Shown here: piece by piece, positions 2,665 to 26,029 of the stretch
Layout: each line of letters begins with the position of its first letter
Position numbering within the stretch: position 1 is the stretch's first letter
Assembly: GCA_934047225.1 (NCBI GenBank)
Contig: OW203993.1
Location: 27,852,069 to 27,916,068 of the forward strand
DNA length: 64,000 nucleotides
Reading direction: 5' to 3'
Source: Ypsolopha sequella
Taxonomy: Eukaryota; Arthropoda; Insecta; Lepidoptera; Ypsolophidae
Position numbers and translations under genes: made by a program
The notes under the pieces: model-generated
The model's database searches: none
What the model saw: only the letters and a program-made list of their open reading frames with translations
What the model was told of the DNA's origin: nothing

Positions 2665-2693
2665 GGTTAGGTTAGGTTAGGTTAGGTTAGGTT
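2665..2693 (+). repeat. Insect telomere-type (TTAGG)n array, 5.8 copies
   Basis: There are 29 uninterrupted bases of GGTTA units. TTAGG is the telomere repeat of most insects. The left side (minus view) ends at CC and the right side (plus view) ends at TT. These are the sites I recall for TRAS (CC|TAA) and SART (TT|AGG) LINEs. A shorter run of the same motif occurs at about 25305-25320. Confidence 0.9.
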
Positions 2694-3117
2694 CCCGTGG
2701 GAGATGCTGGTCTTCTATCGGGCGCGTCCCCAGGTGGCGGATAGGGGAATGCCTCCTAGATATAGGAGGTACCGGTTTATACGGCGCGGACCAAAACCAG
2801 CAGGGGGGGAGTTGCTCTCTGCATTCCTCTGCTCATCAGAGGAAGCAGAAGATGCGACTGAGTGCGGCGAGCTTGGCTAGTATAACAGCTGGCAGGCACG
2901 GGCTTCGGCCACCGTCGGACAACCCGTAAGCCCACACATGTGGGAATGGGGGCCTTTCTGCAAGGCCGTGAGGAAGAAAACCTCTATAAAACAATTACCC
3001 TAATCCCAAGGTGTCCCGTGCTGATGGGATGAATGGCTGGAAGGACTCCAGTCCCGAGCGGGAAGGGGGACCGTCCCCCTCTCAGAAAAGGCGATAGGAT
3101 TATCGACAAAACCACCC
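2694..3117 (+). other. Probable 5' UTR of an R1-clade LINE
   Basis: This begins right after the TTAGG array and leads into the ORF1-like frame at 3118. It is GC-rich compared with its surroundings and has no open frame of note. The abrupt junction with the telomeric motif is what a full-length 5' end of a telomere-specific LINE would look like. Confidence 0.5.
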
Positions 3118-3625
3118 ATGGAGGCGAATTGTAAAAATAAGCTACCCCAGGAGGGTACCGGCTTAGCCGGTGAATCCCTCCCTGAGCATAGCTCGGGCTG
3201 CCCGTCGTATTCTGGGGGGGGCAACAACCGCCAAAATATTGAAGGAGACAGTGACAGTGGAGAGAGCGTTAAATCGTTCCTCTCTATTTCGTCACAAATG
3301 TCAACAGCTTCGGAAACTTCGCGAAAGCGGAAGAAGACCTCACCGTTGAGTCAACGTGGACGAAAAAAGAAGGTTTTGTCAACCGACGAGACTGAATTCC
3401 TTGTTCCCCGCGAAAGGGGGACCAGTGAAACCCGTACCATGCGGACCTTACCAAGACCGGAGGACCTGGCAAGTTCCATGCAGGACTTGCAGACCGCAGA
3501 GTTGGCCAATCGCGTCACCGAGCAGCTGGATGAGGTTGAAAAGGTAGCCACGACATCCGGCAACCTAAAAGGAGGATATGTTTGAAGTCTTCGAATTGCT
3601 GCTCGCACCTTGCTTAATGTCGAGC
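3118..3625 (+). pseudogene. R1-clade LINE ORF1 N-terminal fragment, SART-like by context
   Basis: The frame encodes a Ser/Lys/Arg-rich gag-like N-terminus with a basic block (SRKRKKTSPLSQRGRKKK), then a helix-forming part ending SGNLKGGYV. The next codon is TGA. The same frame then continues SLRIAARTLLN, matching the NLKGxYV...IAAR segment I know from R1-clade ORF1 proteins. This is therefore one ORF1 with an in-frame stop. At about 3625 the sequence switches to an unrelated LINE, so zinc knuckles and ORF2 are missing. Unusually for a LINE, the 5' end is kept and the 3' end lost. Confidence 0.65.
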
Positions 3626-12412: not shown

Positions 12413-13009
12413 AATGATCGTACACCTCCTTTGCAGTTTCTGGCAACGCTTGCATACCGCGTAGTATATCATACTACCACCGTTTTAGCACGCTTAGCGC
12501 TACCACCGCGCACGTAAATGGTCGTAGCTCCCTTGTTTATTGGTCGATTGACTTGATTTAAAGTTAATTGTAATCCTGATTAATGCTGCAACATGCTTTA
12601 TTTCAAGCAAAAATTGCAAAATCCTGATATTTTGCGAGTTATCTAGAAAATAAAAAAGTGTTTTTTATTGAGAGGTTTGTTTTTTGTATTATCTTATTTT
12701 AATTAAGTTTTACATAAATCAATGTAGAAAGTTAGTTATTTTTCATTAAATGCACTTTAATTTGACACCTTTATCAAGTAAATCGGTCAAGTAGTTATCG
12801 AGCTACATCGCTGAACATTATAGGCCAGCCGCCATCTTTTTTACGTAATATCTACCCCCTCCACCACTGAGAGAGTCTACTACCGCACTGTTGGTATTAA
12901 GGAAAATGTGCCTAACAAGTACATACCGGTAGTAGGTATGTCCGAGATGAGTCCTACGAAAATCGTTATTTGAGCACTGTTTTAGAATTGGGTCCCGTAC
13001 TATACCATT
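12413..13009. other. AT-rich stretch with no recognised gene
   Basis: No open frame of note, no tandem array and no terminal repeat. A GC-richer patch near 12460-12530 (TACTACCACCG, then TTAGCGCTACCACCGCG) has a repeated ACCACCG word. I could not assign it. Confidence 0.4.
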
Positions 13010-13762
13010 TTTTTGATGTTCTTATTTTATTTGTCGTGTTTATTTTTATTTTTATTTCGCTCCGTTACAATGTAATGCTTACTCTAACACATAATGAAGA
13101 CCATGCTATTAACAAATAATATAGTGATATATATACAAGGTAACTTTTTGACCATCGTCCAAATTCATACTGGAGGCTTGGTAAGTGATCAGCATCATGA
13201 ATCGTTAACAGTTTTTGTGAAATTCGTATCATGAAATTTCGACTTCCCATAGTAATTTACGCCCAGTCCTGAGTGAATCACTACGGGGAGGCGAAATTTC
13301 GTTTTATGAATTTTACAAAAATCGTTATTGGTTCATGACGCTGATCACTTACCAAGGCTCAAGTATGAATTTGGACGATGTTCGAAAATTCACCTTGTAT
13401 ATATATTTTTTTTAACAATTATATATTATATATTGTAATTAAATGTAAGTTATGGGTAACTTAGCTGGAATAAAATAAATTTATTATTATTATTTCTTAA
13501 ATTTAACATGCACATTTATAAAGTGTTATTTATTTACCAGAATCAGATTCCCGAGGCCTCGCCCGCTTCTCCCCCACGCATTGCATTTGCGACTTCTGAG
13601 TCTCTGTTTCTAATCGCCATTTTTAAATTATATTCCCGAATTTTCCCGGTCCCGACTGACTGCCAGGGTGCTCTGGATGAGATGAGCAATGGCGTTATTT
13701 TCACGGCGAGCCGTGTAGTATGTACACAGCTGCCGGTATGCCTCGCCACAGCCACGACGGCG
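13010..13762 (-). pseudogene. Endogenous viral element copy 1: C-terminal remnant of an SF1 helicase
   Basis: The sequence from about 13541 to 13762 is closely similar to 24330-24535. On the minus strand it holds the last part of the viral-type helicase in broken frames, including the ARHTGS tail of motif VI and the CGEAYRQLC region. The copy ends abruptly near 13762, where the larger copy goes on towards motifs V to I. Similarity to the second copy extends on the other side through non-coding flank (about 13010-13500), so the unit was duplicated together with its flank. Confidence 0.65.
13136..13397. mobile_element. Long-arm palindromic MITE at a TA site
   Basis: Starts CAAGGTAACTTTTTGACCAT and ends with the diverged reverse complement ...AAATTCACCTTG, flanked by TA on both sides. 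The arms are about 105 bp with scattered mismatches, around a short centre near 13255-13290. The related segment at 24220-24250 has only a TA-rich run at this point, so it serves as the empty site. TA duplication suggests Tc1/mariner-type mobilisation. Confidence 0.8.
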
Positions 13763-14354
13763 CGGCGTCAGAGAATATAAAGTATTACTACGTAAAGAAG
13801 CAACACTCACCTCCCCGCGCGAGTTTATCGTCCCCCGCGGTCCCCCGCAAGTTATTGGCAAATCTGGAGGCAGGCAGAGCTCGAGTACCACTCGTTCGTT
13901 GCGCGCGTATTTTGTTTTGTGTTATTACGATATTGATTTTTGGCAATTATGTAATTTTGTAAGTTAAGTTTTTGCTCGTACATTATGTTACCGGCAAAAT
14001 CCGATTTAGGGACAAATTATTTTGCTTTGTTAGTTATATTGTTTGTTACATACAAGTGAAGCTAATAAAAGCGTGTTGAAAATCATCGGTGAAGCGTGGG
14101 TGTAAGAGTATTGACTATAAGCTGCACTTCACAGTTCATACTTAAAAGCACCTCTGACTCCTCTGAAAGGATTCATGTCGTGACATGACGAATATCACGA
14201 TGTTTAAATTTTACTCATATAAAATTCGCGCGTGCCACCGTTACAAAGTTGCGCCGTTGCGGCATCATAAAGGGAAGGGCCATTGATCCCATTTGGACAG
14301 ACGGGAAGTCGTTTGAAGTATTCGTCTAATTTACTTTTAAAGTAATGAAAAAGC
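13763..14354. other. Unassigned region before the SINE
   Basis: It opens with a GC-rich piece (to about 13910), then turns AT-rich. It has a polyadenylation-like AATAAA at about 14065. No protein similarity seen. The segment between the viral remnant breakpoint and the SINE could be another retroelement end, but no motif supports that. Confidence 0.3.
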
Positions 14355-15457: not shown

Positions 15458-16133
15458 TGCAAAGGCCTTCCTTCCTGACGTAGCGATTGCGCATACGTCC
15501 TAAGGAAGGCCAAACTTAACCCCATACACGTGCAAGCCCTTACAGGGCATGGGGGGCTCGCATCGTACCTTTACCGCTTCAAGCTGAAGGACAGTCCAGC
15601 CTGCGTATGTGATCTTGATCAGGAGGAGACGATCTGGCACGTCGTATTCGATTGTCCGAGGTTCGGTCTGTGGAGGGCGGAACTGGAGGTGAAGATCGAA
15701 ATTTAACAAAACATTAATATATCTGTTCAAAATACAATCAATTTAAAATAACAATAATTTAAAAACTGTGACAGTCGGTCATTTGTTACGGACTGCCGCT
15801 CTCCTCATCACTTTCTCCAGGAATCCTAGTAGGGTTGGCCTGTCTACTTTGTCCTGTAAGATCACTGGCAGGTTGGCTTTATTGAATGCCATTTCGATCT
15901 TCACCTCCAGTTCCGCCCTCCACAGACCGAACCTCGGACAATCGAATACGACGTGCCAGATCGTCTCCTCCTGATCAGGATCACATACGCAGGCTGGACT
16001 GTCCTTCAGCTTGAAGCGGTGAAGGTACGATGCGAGCCCCCCATGCCCTGTAAGGGCTTGCACGTGTATGGGGTTAAGTTTGGCCTTCCTTAGGACAGTA
16101 TGCGCAATCGCTACGTCAGGAAGGAAGGCCTTT
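15458..16133. repeat. Inverted repeat of about 245 bp arms inside the LINE
   Basis: The plus strand at 15470-15700 (AAGGCCTTCCTTCCTGACG onward) is the reverse complement of 15889-16130. A spacer of about 190 bp contains another copy of the element's 3' end. The arms differ at few positions, for example a short loss near 15496. The minus-strand frame at 15500-15730 is the shadow of this flip and not a gene. Confidence 0.85.
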
Positions 16134-17772
16134 GTAACCCCTTGTAACTGGAGGACTCGTATCGCCCTTGCCACTGTTGAACATCGCGTATCGTCCTTCT
16201 CAGGTAGGAGAGAGGGACAGCGTCGTAGTCGGCCGCCGTTTTCCTGCGGAGGGCGGCATCTTTGGCGAGCTCGTCCGCCCGCTCATTGCCGGCAGTCCCC
16301 ATATGCGCCCGCAACCAGAAGAGCCGTACGTCACGGCCCTCCATGCGGATTTGACGCACGCACTGCTCAATGCCGTGAGCCAAGGGGTGCAGGAGCGCCC
16401 GGCTTTTGAGCAGGTCCAGCGAGGACCTCGAGTCACTTAAAATGTTGACAAGTGGCTCCTCGCTGTCTTTGACCTGCTCCACGGCTCTGAGCAGAGCGTA
16501 CATCTCCGACTGGAAGACCGTGCAGTAGGGCTCCAGACGGAACTTCGAGTGCCTGGTCTCTCTGCCGTCTGACCACCACGTCAAGGCTGCACCCACCTTC
16601 CCCTGTATCTTACTGCCATCAGTAAAGATACAGGGGCCAGCGATTTGGTGAGCCTCGACTGTTGCCGGCTCGAGATCGTCCACGCACTCGAAGTTCAGTG
16701 ACTGCCTAATGGCAGGATGTGGGAACCGCCCCCAAGGAACGCGCAGTTCTACAGGTCTGTCGGCTGGAATCTGGTCGATTCTCGCTCCTCGCTTTGCCCT
16801 GTATAGACTTGCCGCCTCCTGAACTCGGAGGTCAAGGGGGAGTACATCCGCCAGTACCAAAGCCGATGATAGAGACACCGTGCGGTACGCCTTGCAGAGT
16901 TTTTGCGCGAACCCCCGCTGCAGAGACTCTAATTGATTTTTAATCATTAGCTTCTCGGCAGCCGGAGCCCACACACTCGCGGCGTACAGCACGATAGGCT
17001 CTATCACCGAGACATAGATGGTTCTGATGACCTCTCGGTTCAAACCCCAACTCACTCTGGCAGCACAAGCCAGCTGCTTGTAGATGTCAGTGACTTTTCT
17101 ACAAACAGCCGATACGTGTGCGTTAAAGGTGAGCTTGTTATCTATAATAACACCCAGCAGGCGGATTTTCTGCACTAGCGGCAGGACCTGTCCATCCATG
17201 CTGATGACTGGAGGATCAAACTTCAGCTTCCGCGTCAGCACCATTGCAAACGTTTTGTGCGGTGCGAATTTCAGCTTGTTTTTGAGCCCCCAGTCTAGCA
17301 CGGTCTGAAGGGCCGCGTTTGCTCTCGCCTGAAGGGGGGGGGATTGATGAACCGGAGATCACCAGCGCCACGTCGTCCGCAAAGGCCTGGCAGTGCACTC
17401 CTTCCTGCTCCAGATCTACGAACAGGTTGTCGAGAATAAGGTTCCAACAAGTGGGTCCAGCTATTGAGCCTTGGACGTGTGTCCTTGTTGGTCCCCTTTT
17501 CCCAACACTCCCTTGCGAAATTGACCTTGACCTTACGGTCCTCCAAATAGGAGGCGACAAGTCCATAAATGTTGGCAGGGCACTTATGAGCGAGGAGCTG
17601 GGTCTTTAAAGCCGGCCACCAAGCATTGTCGAAGGCTCCCTCTATGTCCAGTGAGATCATGATAACGATTTTCCGACTCTGTATTTCAGAGCGGACATGT
17701 CTCACGAGGTCATATAGGTAGTCCTCGGTGCTTTTTTGTGGCATGAAGCCATGCTGCCTAGTGCTCATTTTT
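15779..17772 (-). pseudogene. R1-type LINE ORF2 C-terminal half: reverse transcriptase and RNase H
   Basis: Three frames follow one another. The first (17772-17510) has STRQHGFMPQKSTEDYLYDL and the RT A motif SLDIEGAFDNAWW. The second (17500-17330) has GSIAGPTCWNLILDNL and the catalytic QAFADDVALVISG. The third (17301-16111) has the thumb region, then an RNase H domain with FTDGSKIQGK, SEMYALLRAVE, ILSDSRSSLDLL and GNERADELAKDAA. The last frame (16174-15779) carries a Cys/His finger (CVCDPDQEETIWHVVFDC) typical of R1-clade C-termini. Two or more frameshifts inactivate it. RNase H would remove the RNA strand during insertion. Confidence 0.85.
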
Positions 17773-18388: not shown

Positions 18389-18659
18389 GTCAGTGAGTCA
18401 AGTCAGTCAGTTAGTCAGTCAGTCAGTCAGTCAGTCAGTCAGTCAGTCAGTCAGTCAGTCAGTCAGTCAGTCAGTCAGTCAGTCAGTCAGTCAGTCAGTC
18501 AGTCAGTCAGTCAGTCAGTCAGTCAGTCAGTCAGTCAGTCAGTCAGTCAGTCAGTCAGTCAGTCAGTCAGTCAGTCAGTCAGTCAGTCAGTCAGTCAGTC
18601 AGTCAGTCAGTCAGTCAGTCAGTCAGTCAGTCAGTCAGTCAGTCAGTCAGTCAGTCAGT
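18389..18659 (-). repeat. (CTGA)n microsatellite, over 60 units
   Basis: The plus strand reads AGTC repeats, pure from about 18413 to 18659 with two variant units on the left. On the minus strand the first TGA of the array is the stop codon of the Penelope-like protein. The plus-strand frame of Ser-Val-Ser-Gln repeats over it is an artefact of the 4-bp unit. Confidence 0.95.
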
Positions 18660-20640
18660 GTTGTTTGTTCAGTCCAGGTCCATAATGAGCTCCAAGTGAC
18701 CATATGAATGATGTCTCCCATGTCCGTAATTCAATGTCGGTTAATGGAGGTGTGAATGATTTAATGATACGTAGGGTGAAACAGTCGTTAAAGGTCTGGT
18801 TGTGGAGTCGCGTGTGTGTAGGTATGGGAAGAATGTTGTTTGGTATGCGATCTGCTGTGTGTCGGTGTTGGTTCATTCGTTTGTGTATTGGGTTCTTGGT
18901 TTCACCTACGTAGAATGCCGGGCAATGACGGCATTCTAGTAGGTAAATGCAGTTGCTGGTTTTGCATGATGTATTAGGCTGTGTTTTGTATGTGTTTGAT
19001 GTGTGGTGAGTGTTGATATGTGTAGCTGTGTTAATAATGGGACATGTTTTGCACCGAGGTTGTCGGCAAGGAGCTGTACCAGGTGATGAGTTGATGAGGT
19101 TGATGGGTTGTGTTGTTTTTGTTTTACTGAATATGTGTCTGAGGTTTTGGTTTTGTCTGTAACAAATTTTTGGATTAGCGGGTAGTAGATTTTGGGTTTC
19201 GTTGTGTTGTCTGAGAATTGGCAGGGATTCTTTAATAAGTGATCTGAGTTTGTGACTGCCGTGGAAGTAAGTGGTGATGAGACGTGTTTGGTTGGTTGTG
19301 TTTATGTTCTTGTTTTGTCTGTAAAAGTGTGGTCTGTGGTGTAAGTGTTTTTGGAGAAAGTGGTTTGGATAGTTTCGTTTGGAGAGAGCATTGTGGATTT
19401 TGTAATGGTAGTAATTAAGTGCATTTTGATTGTTGCAAATTCGGTGTCCGCGGAGTGAAAGTGAATATGGTATTGATTTTTTAATGTGAGCTGGATGGCA
19501 GCTATTGAAGTCCAAATATTGCAGTTTGTTAGTTGGTTTGAAGTGTACAGCGGTCTGGATGTGGTTGTTTTCGTCAATGGAAATGTCTACGTCTAGGAAT
19601 GTAATTTTGTCAGCTGAGATGATGTGGGTGAATTTCAGTGAGCTGCAGTCGTTAAGTCGGTTTAGAAAAAGTGTCAATGATTCACTGTTGTGCGGCCAGA
19701 TCATGAAAATATCGTCGATAAATCTTTTCCAAATAATGGGCTGCAACGGTTCCGAGGCTAAAAAGTTGGTTTCTATGGACGACATGAAAATATTTGCATA
19801 GCTTGGAGCCACCCGGGTCCCCATGGCTGTACCTTTTGTTTGATGATAAAATTTGTGTTCGAAACTGAAGAAGTTGTTTTTTAGTATTATTTCGGAAAGT
19901 TTAATAATGAAGTTTGTGGACGGTTGATGTGGTAATGCACGGTAATTTAGAGCAGTGCGCAGGGATGAGAGGCCAGCGTCGTGAGGAATATTGGTATAGA
20001 GAGAGACAACGTCTATGGTCACTAGTAGATATTTTGTATTTGAAGGCAGTTGTATAGAGTGAATGATTTCGAGGAAGTGTTTTGTATCTTTTATGTATGA
20101 TGGAATGGTTTTTATGAGTGGCTGGAGGTGAAAATCTACAAATGCTGATATATTTTCGGTTGGTGCGTTGTATGATGCTACAATTGGCCGTCCTGGGTTG
20201 TTTTGTTTATGTACTTTCGGTAGCATATAGAAGTGAGGTGTCCTAGGGTGGCTCGGCAGCATTAGTGTCATGTCAGCTTCGGAAAGACCTTCTGTCGCGC
20301 CATCTGTGTCCAACGTACTCTTGATAATTTCAATGACCTGGTCGCATGGATCACTTGGAGCTGGCGAGTAAAATGTCAGGTTGTTTAGCTGTCTGTGTCC
20401 TTCATTGATATAGTCAGTTTTGTCCATGATTACCGTCGCGGAGCCCTTATCAGCGGGTAAAATAATTATGTTCTCGTTGTTTTTTAATTTGTTCAGAGAA
20501 TGTCTTTCAGTTTGTGTCAAATTTTCGGTTTGGTCTTGTAAATTGTTGATGTAGTTGTCATCAGATAATTTGGCGAAAATGTTGGTTAGGAATATTTCTA
20601 GCGGGTGATTTGGAGGTAGTTGCGGTGGTTCATTTAACGA
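18655..20640 (-). CDS. Penelope-like retroelement protein: reverse transcriptase plus GIY-YIG endonuclease
   Basis: The open frame from TTG/ATG near 20520 is 621 residues, and similarity to the family continues in the same frame up to about 20640 (PALQKFKPNSLNEPP), where tandem repeats begin. Motifs: FYMLPKVHK at residue 97, YLLVTIDVVSLYTNIPH at 164, TAMGTRVAPSYANIFM at 231, catalytic WKRFIDDIFMIWP at 264. The C-terminal nuclease has CIYLLECRHCPAFYVGETKN and KRMNQHRH. The frame has no stop in its conserved part. The N-terminal start is uncertain because of the repeats. This is the best-preserved coding retroelement here apart from the BEL one. Confidence 0.85.
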   Translation of the reverse strand, partial: SLNEPPQLPPNHPLEIFLTNIFAKLSDDNYINNLQDQTENLTQTERHSLNKLKNNENIIILPADKGSATVIMDKTDYINEGHRQLNNLTFYSPAPSDPCDQVIEIIKSTLDTDGATEGLSEADMTLMLPSHPRTPHFYMLPKVHKQNNPGRPIVASYNAPTENISAFVDFHLQPLIKTIPSYIKDTKHFLEIIHSIQLPSNTKYLLVTIDVVSLYTNIPHDAGLSSLRTALNYRALPHQPSTNFIIKLSEIILKNNFFSFEHKFYHQTKGTAMGTRVAPSYANIFMSSIETNFLASEPLQPIIWKRFIDDIFMIWPHNSESLTLFLNRLNDCSSLKFTHIISADKITFLDVDISIDENNHIQTAVHFKPTNKLQYLDFNSCHPAHIKKSIPYSLSLRGHRICNNQNALNYYHYKIHNALSKRNYPNHFLQKHLHHRPHFYRQNKNINTTNQTRLITTYFHGSHKLRSLIKESLPILRQHNETQNLLPANPKICYRQNQNLRHIFSKTKTTQPINLINSSPGTAPCRQPRCKTCPIINTATHINTHHTSNTYKTQPNTSCKTSNCIYLLECRHCPAFYVGETKNPIHKRMNQHRHTADRIPNNILPIPTHTRLHNQTFNDCFTLRIIKSFTPPLTDIELRTWETSFIWSLGAHYGPGLNKQH

Positions 20641-21169
20641 GTTTGGTTTGAATTTTTGGAGCGCTGGATTTATGTTATTTTGTTAACGAGTTTGGTTTGA
20701 ATTTTTGGAGCGCTGGATTTATGTTATTTTGTTAACGAGTTTGGTTTGAATTTTTGGAGCGCTGGATTTATGTTATTTTGTTAACGAGTTTGGTTTGAAT
20801 TTTTGGAGCGCTGGATTTATGTTATTTTGTTAACGAGTTTGGTTTGAATTTTTGGAGCGCTGGATTTATGTTATTTTGTTAACGAGTTTGGTTTGAATTT
20901 TTGGAGCGCTGGATTTATGTTATTTTGTTAACGAGTTTGGTTTGAATTTTTGGAGCGCTGGATTTATGTTATTTTGTTAACGAGTTTGGTTTGAATTTTT
21001 GGAGCGCTGGATTTATGTTATTTTGTTAACGAGTTTGGTTTGAATTTTTGGAGCGCTGGATTTATGTTATTTTGTTAACGAGTTTGGTTTGAATTTTTGG
21101 AGCGCTGGATTTATGTTATTTTGTTAACGAGTTTGGTTTGAATTTTTGGAGCGCTGGATTTATGTTATT
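20636..21169 (+). repeat. 49-bp tandem repeat, 10.9 near-identical copies
   Basis: The unit starts AACGAGTTTGGTTTGAATTT and ends TATGTTATTTTGTT. Copies start every 49 bp from 20636 to 21126; the last is cut at 21169. The copies appear identical. 49 is not a multiple of 3, so each unit shifts the frame of the Penelope-like protein whose N-terminal coding region it duplicates. Confidence 0.95.
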
Positions 21170-22465: not shown

Positions 22466-24109
22466 AAAATAAAATCAAATCACAAAATATTAAATAGAAT
22501 TCAATAGAATTAGAGTCAAAGATAAAATGTAAATAGTCTATAGCTTATTAAAATTGTATAAACACACAAAAATCAAAGAACAAAATTAATTAATATGGCA
22601 AAAGCCTAAAATAAGTAAAATGTATCAAAAATGGACGGACAATAAAAAGTAAACTAAAATCACACTAATTATCACTGTTCTATAAATAAGAGGGCAAAAA
22701 TATCACAGAAGAAAATTAATCATCAAATTTAATTCAAAATTCTACTTAAAGTTAAATCAAATCAAATAAAATGTAACATAAATCTGAATAAATTAAGAGA
22801 CTCAAAAGAGTTAAAATAAATTAATTAATTAAAATCAAAAAATAAGTTGAAAGGTAAAATAAATTTATCAACTGTCTGAGACTAAGTCCAATATTTATAT
22901 AGTTAAAAGTTGTGACAGTGATATTACGAACATAGAACAGTAAAATTAAAACAAAATTGGAGATCCGCCAACCGGCAAAACAACCGAAAAAATAAGCGTT
23001 ATCTTTACAAAAGCCAAAGGGAGAACAAAGGAAAAACTAAAAAATTAATTTAGAATTTATACAGAAGGAGTAGCGAAATTTTAAAACCAGATTATTGTAG
23101 GTGGCAATGAGCACTACCTACTAGAATTTTTTCCGAAAATTTTCCCCTCTCCAGGAAATTTTGAAAAAATTTTGAAAACATTTTTTGATAGGGGGGGGGG
23201 GTCAAAAATAGTAGAGAACGAAAAAACGCTTATTTTTTCGATCCGAGCCCTGGTTCCCGAGCTATCACGATTACCAAGGTTTTTGCCGATGGCGGATTCT
23301 TCCCGCCCTCAGTAAAAAATTAATATTTAAAAAAGTAATAACAGTAAAAATCTAAAATACGTCGCTATTGAATCCTTGTCAGACCGCCGTTCTTCTCGTA
23401 AAATAAAATTTATGGGTCACCGATCTTCTTCCCGAAATAATGGGTCGGGAAGACGGGAGTCAGATTACCAACAGCGGTATATGGTCCACTGTGATCAGAG
23501 TATTTAAAAAAAAAATCAAAAACCTCTTGATTCGTCGTCCAGCAGGCGTTGTCTGTCACGGGACACCTCCAATTTGCCCGTGGCACTTCCGGTTCCGGAG
23601 ATAGGGGCCCACGTGGTTTTTGTTTTTTTGCCCCTAAAATCCGTAATCCTGGACCGAAGTGGGCAAATGAGGTGTCAGGAGATAGGGCCTGACTAGATGA
23701 CCCCAGCCGTGTCCAAATACCGCTGGGGCACTCGATCCGATTTTGAGGAAAACACCAAAAACCAAAATCACAGTTATTTTTCGGAACTTTTGTTCCAGAA
23801 AATCCTCAAAAAACACTTTTAGTCACTTTTTCTTGTTGACCAAGGAAGAGCTCGGCTATCTGATCAAAACGATACCTTGCTTGTTTTGATCGGGTTTTTT
23901 TTTATATTTTTAGCGATTTATCGCGTGCGGAGCAGTGTAAAAATGATGCGCTCTGGGCGAGAGTTGGCACGCGACTCCCACCCATCACGTTGGGATGTAA
24001 TATTTGTAGGTGTAGGTTCCAAATCTTCATCTCCCTCTAGGTATATGGATTAGGTTTTTTTTTTTTTTTTTTTTAAATGAAAGATTTTGCTATTGGATTA
24101 GATCTCCCA
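22466..24109. other. Unassigned 1.6-kb region
   Basis: 22466-23100 is A-rich on the plus strand with no coding. 23130-23300 has poly-purine runs and a stretch of eleven G at about 23193. 23400-24060 is more mixed in composition. The small minus frame at 23634-23816 has no recognisable motif. No inverted ends or tandem array were found. Confidence 0.4.
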
Positions 24110-24311
24110 TACCATTTTTTTGTTGTTCTTGGTTTATTTGATGTGTTTATTTTTATTTATATTTCGCTCCGTTACAATGTAATGCTTACTCTATGAAGAC
24201 CATGCTAAACAAATAATATAGTGATATATATATATATATATTTTTTTTTTACACAATTATATATTTCTTATATTAAATTAAATTAACATGCACATTTATG
24301 AAGTTTTTTTA
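24110..24311. repeat. Flank shared with the first viral-element copy
   Basis: TTTCGCTCCGTTACAATGTA and GAAGACCATGCTA here match about 13050-13110, and AACATGCACATTTAT matches 13505. The two segments share both viral coding and this flank, except that the left copy carries a MITE where this one has a TA run. Confidence 0.8.
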
Positions 24312-25300
24312 CTAGAAACAGATTCCCGAGGCCTCGCCCGCTTCTCCCCCACGCATTGCATTTGCGACTCCTGAGTCTCTGTTTCTAATCGCCATTTTTA
24401 AATTATAATCCCGAATTTTCCCGGTCTCGACTGCCAGGGTGCTCTGGATGAGATGAGCAATGGCGTCATTTTCACGGCGAGCCGTGTAGTATACACAGCT
24501 GCCGGTATGCCTCGACACAGCCACGACCGCGTGGTGGAAGCTGCTGTGCAACTGCTGTTTTTCTTTGGCAGTTCTCACGATGACCACTCTCTCCCACGTA
24601 AGTCCCTGAGCTTCATGGATTGTGTGGAGACGCGAGCCCTCCAACCCCCCGTACCCTTGGTCTTTTAGGTACGCTTTTTCAGCCTGGGTGTGAACCAGGT
24701 AAGGGGCTTGTTGGGGAGCCGCGTCTCTTCGTATGTTTCCAGAGTCAGGGAACGTGTTTGAGCCTTGGATGAGTATATGCCACTGTAGATCTCCCTTAGG
24801 GCATATGCTACATCCATGGGGTTCCTGTGTGTACACAGCAGTTCCTTTGTTATCTTCACGTACGAGCTGGGACGTTTGTATTTCATCGGAAAAAGGTTCT
24901 CTCGATCGATGTAAGGGACCTGGTTGTGGTCTCCAAGGAGTAGAGACTCGCTGGCGCCGGTTAATTTCATGGCTAGCACTATGGCTCCAAAGTGGATCAT
25001 GAGAGCTTCGTCAACAATAAGCCGACTGCAGCTCTCACCCTCACTCACGCCGTTTGCCAGCAGGGAGGCTCTGCCAAATTTAGGCTTGAGTATTTCGCGG
25101 AGGTCTCTGGCTCCGTCACTACCATGTCCCTTTCACCGTTGACATTATTCACCACCCAGGTTGTTTACCCGCTCCCTGGGACTCCGTTGACCCACTCCAT
25201 TTTAGGCGTCGGCAATTGTGTGAGGGTTTCGGTGGTTTCAAGGCCCCGTGGCAACTGATTTGCCATGTTAAGGATCCTTTCTTCCAGCATTACCCTCGTA
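24312..25300 (-). pseudogene. Endogenous viral element copy 2: RNA-virus-type superfamily 1 helicase
   Basis: On the minus strand, helicase motifs appear in order. A Walker A block GVPGSG-stop-TT is at about 25180-25150, where TAA sits at the lysine position. Motif II (LIVDEALM) and motif III (LLLGDHNQVPY) lie at 25010-24890, motif V (TIHEAQGLTW) near 24610 and motif VI (HHAVVAVSRHTGS) near 24530. This matches helicases of alphavirus-like plus-strand RNA viruses (virga-, cile- and nege-like groups). Endogenous copies of such helicases have been reported in insects. At least two frameshifts and several stops break it. No methyltransferase or polymerase domain is seen nearby. Confidence 0.75.
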
Positions 25301-25470
25301 TGGATTAGGTTAGGTTAGGTGATAAAGATAAGTCATCATAAAAAGTAGACATACATACGTGTACACTAAAATATGTTAATTAACTTACACCCTGCGATTT
25401 TATATAACTACCATATACCTACATAAATAATAATGAAGTAACTATTTAAACAATAAACATATTTTAAACA
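25301..25470. other. Spacer with short TTAGG run
   Basis: Three TTAGG units lie at about 25305-25320, directly after the end of helicase-like similarity. The rest is AT-rich with no feature. Confidence 0.5.
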
Positions 25471-25541
25471 TTATTAGAGTGCAATACAAACTAGAAAATA
25501 TCAATCAGAAACAAATCCAAAGACAAGAATTTGAAAAAATT

Positions 25542-25612
25542 CCCCGGGCCAGGATTCGAACCTGCGACCTCTTGTTATTAAGACAAGCGCGTTTCCAATT
25601 GCGCCACCGCGA
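25542..25612 (-). ncRNA. tRNA-like sequence (arm 1)
   Basis: TGGCGCAATTGG fits the D-arm/A box and GGTTCGAATCC is a perfect B box. The anticodon stem CTTGT/ACAAG encloses the loop CTTAATA, which would give anticodon TAA by position. The other arm gives TGA, and the acceptor stem pairs poorly. I treat it as tRNA-derived and not as a working tRNA gene. Confidence 0.4.
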
Positions 25613-25747
25613 AAATCACATAACATGGCGTGAAATCAAATAACCCCCTCGTGAGCGTTCTGTATGTGCAGTACAAGCTAGTATATCAAGCAGATGCAAA
25701 AATAACAGTGGACAAGTATGATGGAAGAATTCGCCGGTCTAGGTAGG

Positions 25748-25820
25748 AACCTCGGTGGCGCAATTGGTAGCGCGCTTGTCTTGATAACAAGAGGTCGCAG
25801 GTTCGAATCCTGGCCCGGGG
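25748..25820 (+). ncRNA. tRNA-like sequence (arm 2)
   Basis: Same layout as arm 1 with the loop CTTGATA (anticodon TGA by position) and the B box GGTTCGAATCC. Only about 5 of 7 acceptor pairs form between ACCTCGG and CCCGGGG. There is no long variable arm, which argues against a true serine tRNA. Confidence 0.4.
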
Positions 25821-26029
25821 AATTTTTTCAAATTCTTGTCTTTGGATTTGTTTCTGATTGATATTTTATAGTTTGTATTGCACTCTAATAATATTTAGAG
25901 TATTCATAGCGATGGATTTCCCAAAATAAAAATAAACATATTTACTTATATACATAATACTTACAATAAATAGGATAAAAATACATAACAATAGTTAAAA
26001 TAAATATTGTGATATCTACAGATAGATAC

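Follow-up and report, generated by a model that had tools for sequence, protein, structure and literature searches.

The sequence at positions 24057-25298 (minus strand) of the window, i.e., of the whole 64-kb stretch of DNA analyzed here, represents almost certainly a 5′-truncated, decayed copy of a TRAS-type (R1 clade) non-LTR retrotransposon (LINE), whose ORF2 C-terminus is a virus-derived SF1 helicase. The insertion anatomy, the family identity, and the relatives of the copy were directly observed. The locus itself is an ordinary copy of a known kind of element, namely the TRAS-SF1H LINEs, and its interest lies in two corrections to the published picture provided by its sister copies.

Anatomy of the inserted copy and its target site

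The inserted unit was found to be wider than the segment 24312..25300, for which the original prediction had claimed an endogenous RNA-virus helicase. Homology to the intact element L028 of the same genome ends at 25299 on the DNA level and reaches through the end of the 3′ UTR to the poly(A). The following features were distinguished:

24057..25298, minus strand: whole insert, a 5′-truncated TRAS-type LINE copy with its 5′ end at 25298, lying inside a 13-bp direct repeat and containing the helicase with the ~28 residues that precede it, the 3′ UTR, and the poly(A)
25168..25299, minus strand: ORF2 piece up to motif I (GVPGSG), 59% identical to P0015 1664-1707
24665..25132, minus strand: helicase piece with motifs II and III, PF01443 E 6e-9, 75% identical to P0015 1729-1880
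24312..24701, minus strand: C-terminal helicase piece of ORF2, containing motifs V and VI, PF01443 E 2e-11, 74% identical to P0015 1880-2002
24055..24170, minus strand: end of the LINE 3′ UTR, 86.6% identical to the 3′ end of L028
24057..24074, minus strand: poly(A) tail, with CCTAA directly after it, as in sister copies
24044..24056, no strand: target-site duplication on the 3′ side of the insert, 13/13 identical to 25299-25311
25299..25311, no strand: target-site duplication on the 5′ side of the insert, 13/13 identical to 24044-24056
25305..25319, plus strand: (TTAGG)3 target; the 64-kb window has just one other perfect array of ≥3 units

As originally predicted, helicase motifs I, II, III, V, and VI were read in order on the minus strand between 25185 and ~24504, namely GVPGSG followed by a stop (25185-25165), VDEA (25015-25004), the motif III region LLLGDHNQVPY (~24943-24911), IHEAQG (24620-24603), and VAVSRHT (~24524-24504). 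The stop codon at motif I (25165-25167) and four gaps relative to L028, two of them frame-changing, agree with the view that the segment is dead as a protein. The Viral_helicase1 family (PF01443) scored above its cut-off in two of the four separately searched pieces, with 24665-25132 aligning to profile positions 56-147 and 24315-24701 to positions 164-228, and the two short motif-I pieces gave no family match in Pfam. Furthermore, both long pieces matched the tobamovirus-type replicase helicase structures 3vkw/3wrx in the right order (E 4e-7 and 8e-6). The helicase signal was thus confirmed to be far beyond chance, and the proposed assignment to the plus-strand RNA virus (virga-like) type holds for the distant ancestry of the helicase only. 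A pseudogene of a cellular SF1 helicase, to which weak matches of the pieces to the generic AAA_19 and UvrD_C_2 profiles could be ascribed, was rejected as wholly implausible, since these scores stayed under the curated cut-offs whereas PF01443 was above its own, and since the relatives found were LINE ORF2 proteins or viral replicases.

Compared to an intact element, the window copy starts at ORF2 residue ~1664 and contains no ORF1, endonuclease, or RT part; it is therefore not a complete TRAS-SF1H LINE. As in LINE ORF2, coding stops shortly past motif VI, with no continuation to an RdRp.

The A run of the insert (24055-24074) extends two bases into the 13-bp duplication, so that the insert edge is ambiguous by two bases. 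Identical 11-mers at the spacing of the insert's repeat were found at three of 62,732 window positions, which is what one 13-bp repeat would be expected to yield by itself. The 5′ copy of the duplication overlaps the (TTAGG)3 array, and its start is compatible with the T/A cut within TTAGG given for TRAS-kind endonucleases in PMC4700185. Taken together, the insertion anatomy points to target-primed reverse transcription by the element's own enzyme, and the earlier assumption that a reverse transcriptase had placed the segment is borne out to the extent that we infer this process. The LINE RNA would have been carried by LINE proteins to the short interstitial TTAGG array, where the endonuclease would have nicked the telomere-like repeat; reverse transcription would have begun at the poly(A) tail and stopped early within the helicase-coding part, and repair would have left the 13-bp duplication, with the copy presumably dead on arrival.

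The window copy resides in the chromosome interior, ~2.6 Mb from the contig end (C10:27852069-27916068, 867-Mb assembly). Such an off-telomere target is unusual, because the sister copies on chromosome-sized contigs lie at most 124 kb from the contig end. Truncated TRAS copies outside telomeres were also described in PMC4700185, as being "not at the target site", whereas the window copy is located at a TTAGG target; recombination was suggested there for off-telomere copies. Movement of a helicase-bearing LINE segment from a chromosome end to this place by recombination or gene conversion is, however, very improbable, as the 13-bp duplication at both edges, the clean 5′ truncation, and the poly(A) edge are marks of retroposition. 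A probe joining the two flanks recovered no uninterrupted paralogous empty site among the 40 places scored of 1108 candidates: its own two halves were found at 100%, no match extended over more than one half, and the first ~129 bases were recognized as a dispersed repeat, with 90-93% identity in the other 38 listed places.

Further repeats were noticed in the surroundings of the insert. The dispersed repeat makes up the 5′ flank (25320-25448), occurs in at least 38 other places at 90-93%, and stops just short of the TTAGG array. Beside it, two 151-nt inverted arms (window 25459-25903) are 95% complementary and each overlap a tRNA-like sequence (called Leu and Ser); this region looks like a tRNA-derived repeat pair beside the insertion. 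In addition, a long open frame with RT and GIY-YIG domains at 18655-20682 (minus strand) corresponds to a Penelope-like element.

Relatives of the helicase and its place in the tree

Searches with the window pieces, which admit only proteins of similar length, returned 12 proteins of 298 candidates for the first piece (56-69% identity) and two of seven candidates for the second. Eight of the 12 first-piece matches were named, all of them lepidopteran (Heliothis, Helicoverpa, Epargyreus, and Eumeta), and one of the two second-piece matches was named Papilio machaon; such relatives point to a moth or butterfly as the probable source of the LINE. Because of this length limit, a second search, open to viral replicases as well, was started from the helicase region of an intact LINE ORF2. 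Among the 81 proteins obtained, as classified by Pfam domain assignments, 53 featured both RT and helicase domains, 26 appeared to be viral (RdRp_2 present in 22), and two carried a helicase without RT.

The three pieces were 75%, 74%, and 59% identical to the LINE of the same genome and 52%, 46%, and 43% identical to P0070, the best-scoring virus. Identities of the first piece to the next five viruses listed were 38-39%, and the second piece reached 44-53% with other viruses over shorter stretches and with lower scores. P0070 is a 3147-aa replicase encoded on a contig of 10,908 bases, with 46% identity over 92% of the helicase query. P0014 from Papilio machaon shares 56% identity with the second window piece; its annotation, "Replicase large subunit", is probably a wrong name for a LINE fragment.

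Of the 81 rows in the tree, 54 were LINE-type proteins (including P0049, which has no RT domain) and 25 viral replicases, and each of the two window pieces was given a row of its own; P0071 and P0072 were excluded for their short length and P0080 for its split match. All LINE rows fell on one side of a branch (support 97/92), both window pieces grouped with the LINE of their own genome (100/95), and, among the viruses, P0070 was the first to join the LINE group (100/99). Several distant viral rows were long-branched and unsure in their order, which leaves these three nodes unaffected. Since all LINE helicases form one group, the virus-to-LINE transfer is old and shared, and the capture, on the tree, a single one. 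As judged from these comparisons, P0070 would be the closest viral relative of the donor virus found here.

The original prediction had proposed that an RNA virus integrated at this locus by means of a host or retroelement reverse transcriptase; on this view, virga/nege-like viral RNA would have been reverse-transcribed by a host LINE and inserted. The viral-type SF1 helicase (PF01443, 3vkw/3wrx) would fit this proposal, and the poly(A) and the target-site duplication are likewise in accordance with LINE-mediated insertion of viral RNA. However, the insert ends in the LINE's own 3′ UTR, followed by poly(A), inside the target-site duplications; near-identical copies exist elsewhere, and in related intact elements, RT and helicase are part of one ORF2; the coding part does not run on to an RdRp; and the LINE matches exceed those of every virus found, the best match of the translated fragments being transposon-encoded (75% versus 52% for the nearest virus), an outcome that the original prediction itself had named as its refutation, in agreement with the placement of the pieces among the LINEs. 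Direct viral integration at this locus was therefore rejected on the basis of the LINE 3′ UTR, the sister copies, and the tree, and is considered highly unlikely. Of the claimed endogenous viral origin, the distant ancestry of the helicase persists, and the integration of a virus at this place does not. Viral motifs in insect DNA can be passengers of transposons, so that this locus does not belong in a count of virus integrations.

Sister copies and telomeric repeats

The insert had at least 78 matches in its own genome. In the helicase part (929-933 ungapped columns), the closest copies L021, L022, and L023 share 99.0%, 98.3%, and 98.3% identity, respectively, with the window copy, which has four private substitutions; its identity to L028 is 79%. 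The corresponding whole-query identities of L021-L023 (91%, 90%, and 87%) are lower because of gaps and the UTR. Given the sister identity of 98-99% and the four private substitutions, the window copy is probably young.

Copies with an intact motif I are also present in the genome. An open ORF2 of 2011 aa was found in six of the 12 telomeric-subfamily copies retrieved with their upstream part (L028, L029, L030, L032, L034, and L043). In L028, this single ORF encodes endonuclease, RT, RNase H, and Viral_helicase1 (PF01443), and is preceded by an ORF1 of 692 aa.

Further LINE remnants reside in the same 64-kb window, among them a second remnant of the helicase-bearing LINE and, near it, a remnant of a helicase-less TRAS type:

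13486..13765, minus strand: second remnant, helicase C-terminal part, 89-94% DNA identity to sisters, tblastn match to P0015 1944-2002
13002..13149, minus strand: 3′ UTR piece, probably of the second remnant, 87-89% identity to sisters, with varying match lengths (the longest to 13149)
15460..17767, minus strand: helicase-less TRAS-type remnant (RT, RNase H), partly rearranged, 94% to L026

In the latter, PF00078 and PF00075 were detected in neighboring frames. A segment at 2665-3613 (plus strand) begins at the one remaining (TTAGG)≥3 array in the window and is 96% identical to L023:3073-4020, which likewise has its start at a TTAGG array, close to the end of contig C21. The strand of L023:3073-4020 carries a 715-aa frame in an orientation opposite to TRAS; the segment is perhaps a SART-type LINE, this name being a guess.

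To describe the surroundings of the helicase-bearing elements, 31 sister copies were considered, defined as those matching query positions 336-1260 in the own-genome search. In 29 of them, the poly(A) was directly followed by CCTAA; one copy (C11:74867) featured a single G in between, and one (C13:87145) had no CCTAA. The adjoining array comprised at least three perfect units in 26 copies and one or two units in four. All 18 copies on chromosome-sized contigs (≥18.8 Mb) were located within 124 kb of a contig end, and the other 13 reside on contigs of at most 144 kb, where the position relative to a chromosome end is not placeable. On the upstream side, an array of at least three units was detected in four of the 12 retrieved stretches (L027, L028, L030, and L040) and was not seen in the other eight, some of which may stop short of the 5′ end of the element. 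Arrays flank the intact copies L028 and L030 on either side (24 + 33 and 39 + 20 units, respectively), and the intact L030 and L034 are located on chromosome-sized contigs. Helicase-bearing copies thus abut (TTAGG)n in this genome (30/31), contrary to a 2019 paper, which describes helicase-bearing TRAS copies as absent near (TTAGG)n; this observation may be new.

The viral replicase piece and comparison with known systems

PMC4686597 reports a spacer of >300 residues that separates the LINE part from the helicase and is without any match; the word "spacer" is absent from the main text of Morozov 2017 (PMC5563155). A spacer profile was built from 46 LINE ORF2 proteins (>1900 aa, of the 54) and cut 15 residues before motif I, with E-values given for a set size of 100,000. 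It matched P0070 at 1502-1704 (5e-22) and 1827-2071 (4e-38) and, furthermore, the Atrato virga-like replicases P0077 (8e-7) and P0073 (1e-6); P0076 was marginal (0.004), and three further viral proteins were not significant (0.12-3). Altogether, seven of the 25 viral proteins gave any row, compared to none of 25 reversed and 125 shuffled sequences. Sorted by virus, P0070 as well as Atrato 3 and 4 showed a clear spacer match, Atrato 1 a marginal one, and Atrato 2 none of significance, with the strong match resting on the single viral protein P0070.

In P0070, FtsJ (975-1145) is followed by the spacer-matching stretches, the helicase (2083-2336), and the RdRp. On the LINE side, homology of the helicase-less TRAS-like element L026, also from this genome, to ORF2 extends to residue 1253 and spans an in-frame stop; an extra match of 19 residues in the L026 stretch falls in the next, helicase-bearing copy, whose start follows a CCTAA array. 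From profile positions, the start of the viral match was estimated at ORF2 residue ~1268, the helicase match to P0070 ends at ~1991, and ~120 viral residues are without counterpart in the LINE extension. Since spacer and helicase are collinear with the replicase, most of the C-terminal extension of ORF2 looks like one captured viral replicase piece, larger than published.

Between subfamilies of the genome, dN/dS values of 0.17-0.19 for the helicase (three comparisons) and 0.19-0.24 for the spacer (two) were obtained, compared to 0.105 for RT (one) and 0.12-0.14 for RNase H (two); the endonuclease value of 0.17 (one comparison, L033) is doubtful, dS being saturated at 2.2, and comparisons of near-identical copies were uninformative, with few changes each. 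These ratios indicate that the extension is under purifying selection, somewhat weaker than that on RT.

On balance, we slightly favor the view that the intact sisters are residents of telomeric repeats, keeping a replicase piece of ~720 residues that was captured once as a unit and is under purifying selection. If so, and if the arrays help to build chromosome ends, telomeres would be partly maintained by a retrotransposon using a captured viral replication module, and the published statements that the spacer matches nothing and that helicase-bearing TRAS elements are not near telomeric repeats would both need correcting. Regarding the role of the helicase, our preferred guess, held at about even odds, is that it helps in unwinding or protecting the LINE RNA. 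The main rival is silencing suppression, reported as weak in plant tests in PMC4686597 and PMC6338049 and called not unequivocal by the authors of the former.

No report of a spacer-virus match or of a telomeric location of helicase-bearing copies was recognized among the titles and abstracts listed in our literature searches, and both results are possibly new. They point to the extent and the likely donor lineage of the LINE-captured viral piece, i.e., a collinear replicase segment closest to the virga-like P0070, and, with helicase-bearing elements occupying telomeric repeats in at least one genome, the role of the module in telomeric retrotransposition becomes testable.

Lepidopteran TRAS-family LINEs with a C-terminal SF1H helicase were described by Lazareva et al. 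2015 (PMC4686597) and Morozov et al. 2017 (PMC5563155). The intact sisters resemble them in encoding ORF1 and an ORF2 in which EN, RT, and RNase H are combined with a C-terminal SF1 helicase of viral type, and share a tree group with proteins of Ostrinia, Plodia, Plutella, and Spodoptera. In contrast to these described elements, the window copy is a 5′-truncated dead fragment, the copies analyzed here abut (TTAGG)n, and their spacer is recognizably viral, as far as the published descriptions consulted extend. Placement of the window LINE in TRAS (R1 clade) rests on the RT tree of PMC4686597, by which helicase-bearing elements are assigned to TRAS. Insertion next to (TTAGG)n is shared with TRAS1 and TRAS3 of Bombyx mori, telomeric repeat-specific R1-clade LINEs; unlike the helicase-bearing elements, TRAS3 is without the helicase extension according to the same source, and a helicase-less TRAS-like element (L026) is also present in this genome. 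With the virga-like replicases (P0070 and Atrato Virga-like viruses 1-4), the elements have a homologous helicase in common and, except for Atrato 2, where the match was not significant, a homologous pre-helicase region, marginal in Atrato 1; methyltransferase, FtsJ, and RdRp domains, which are absent from LINE ORF2, were additionally present in P0070 and P0077.
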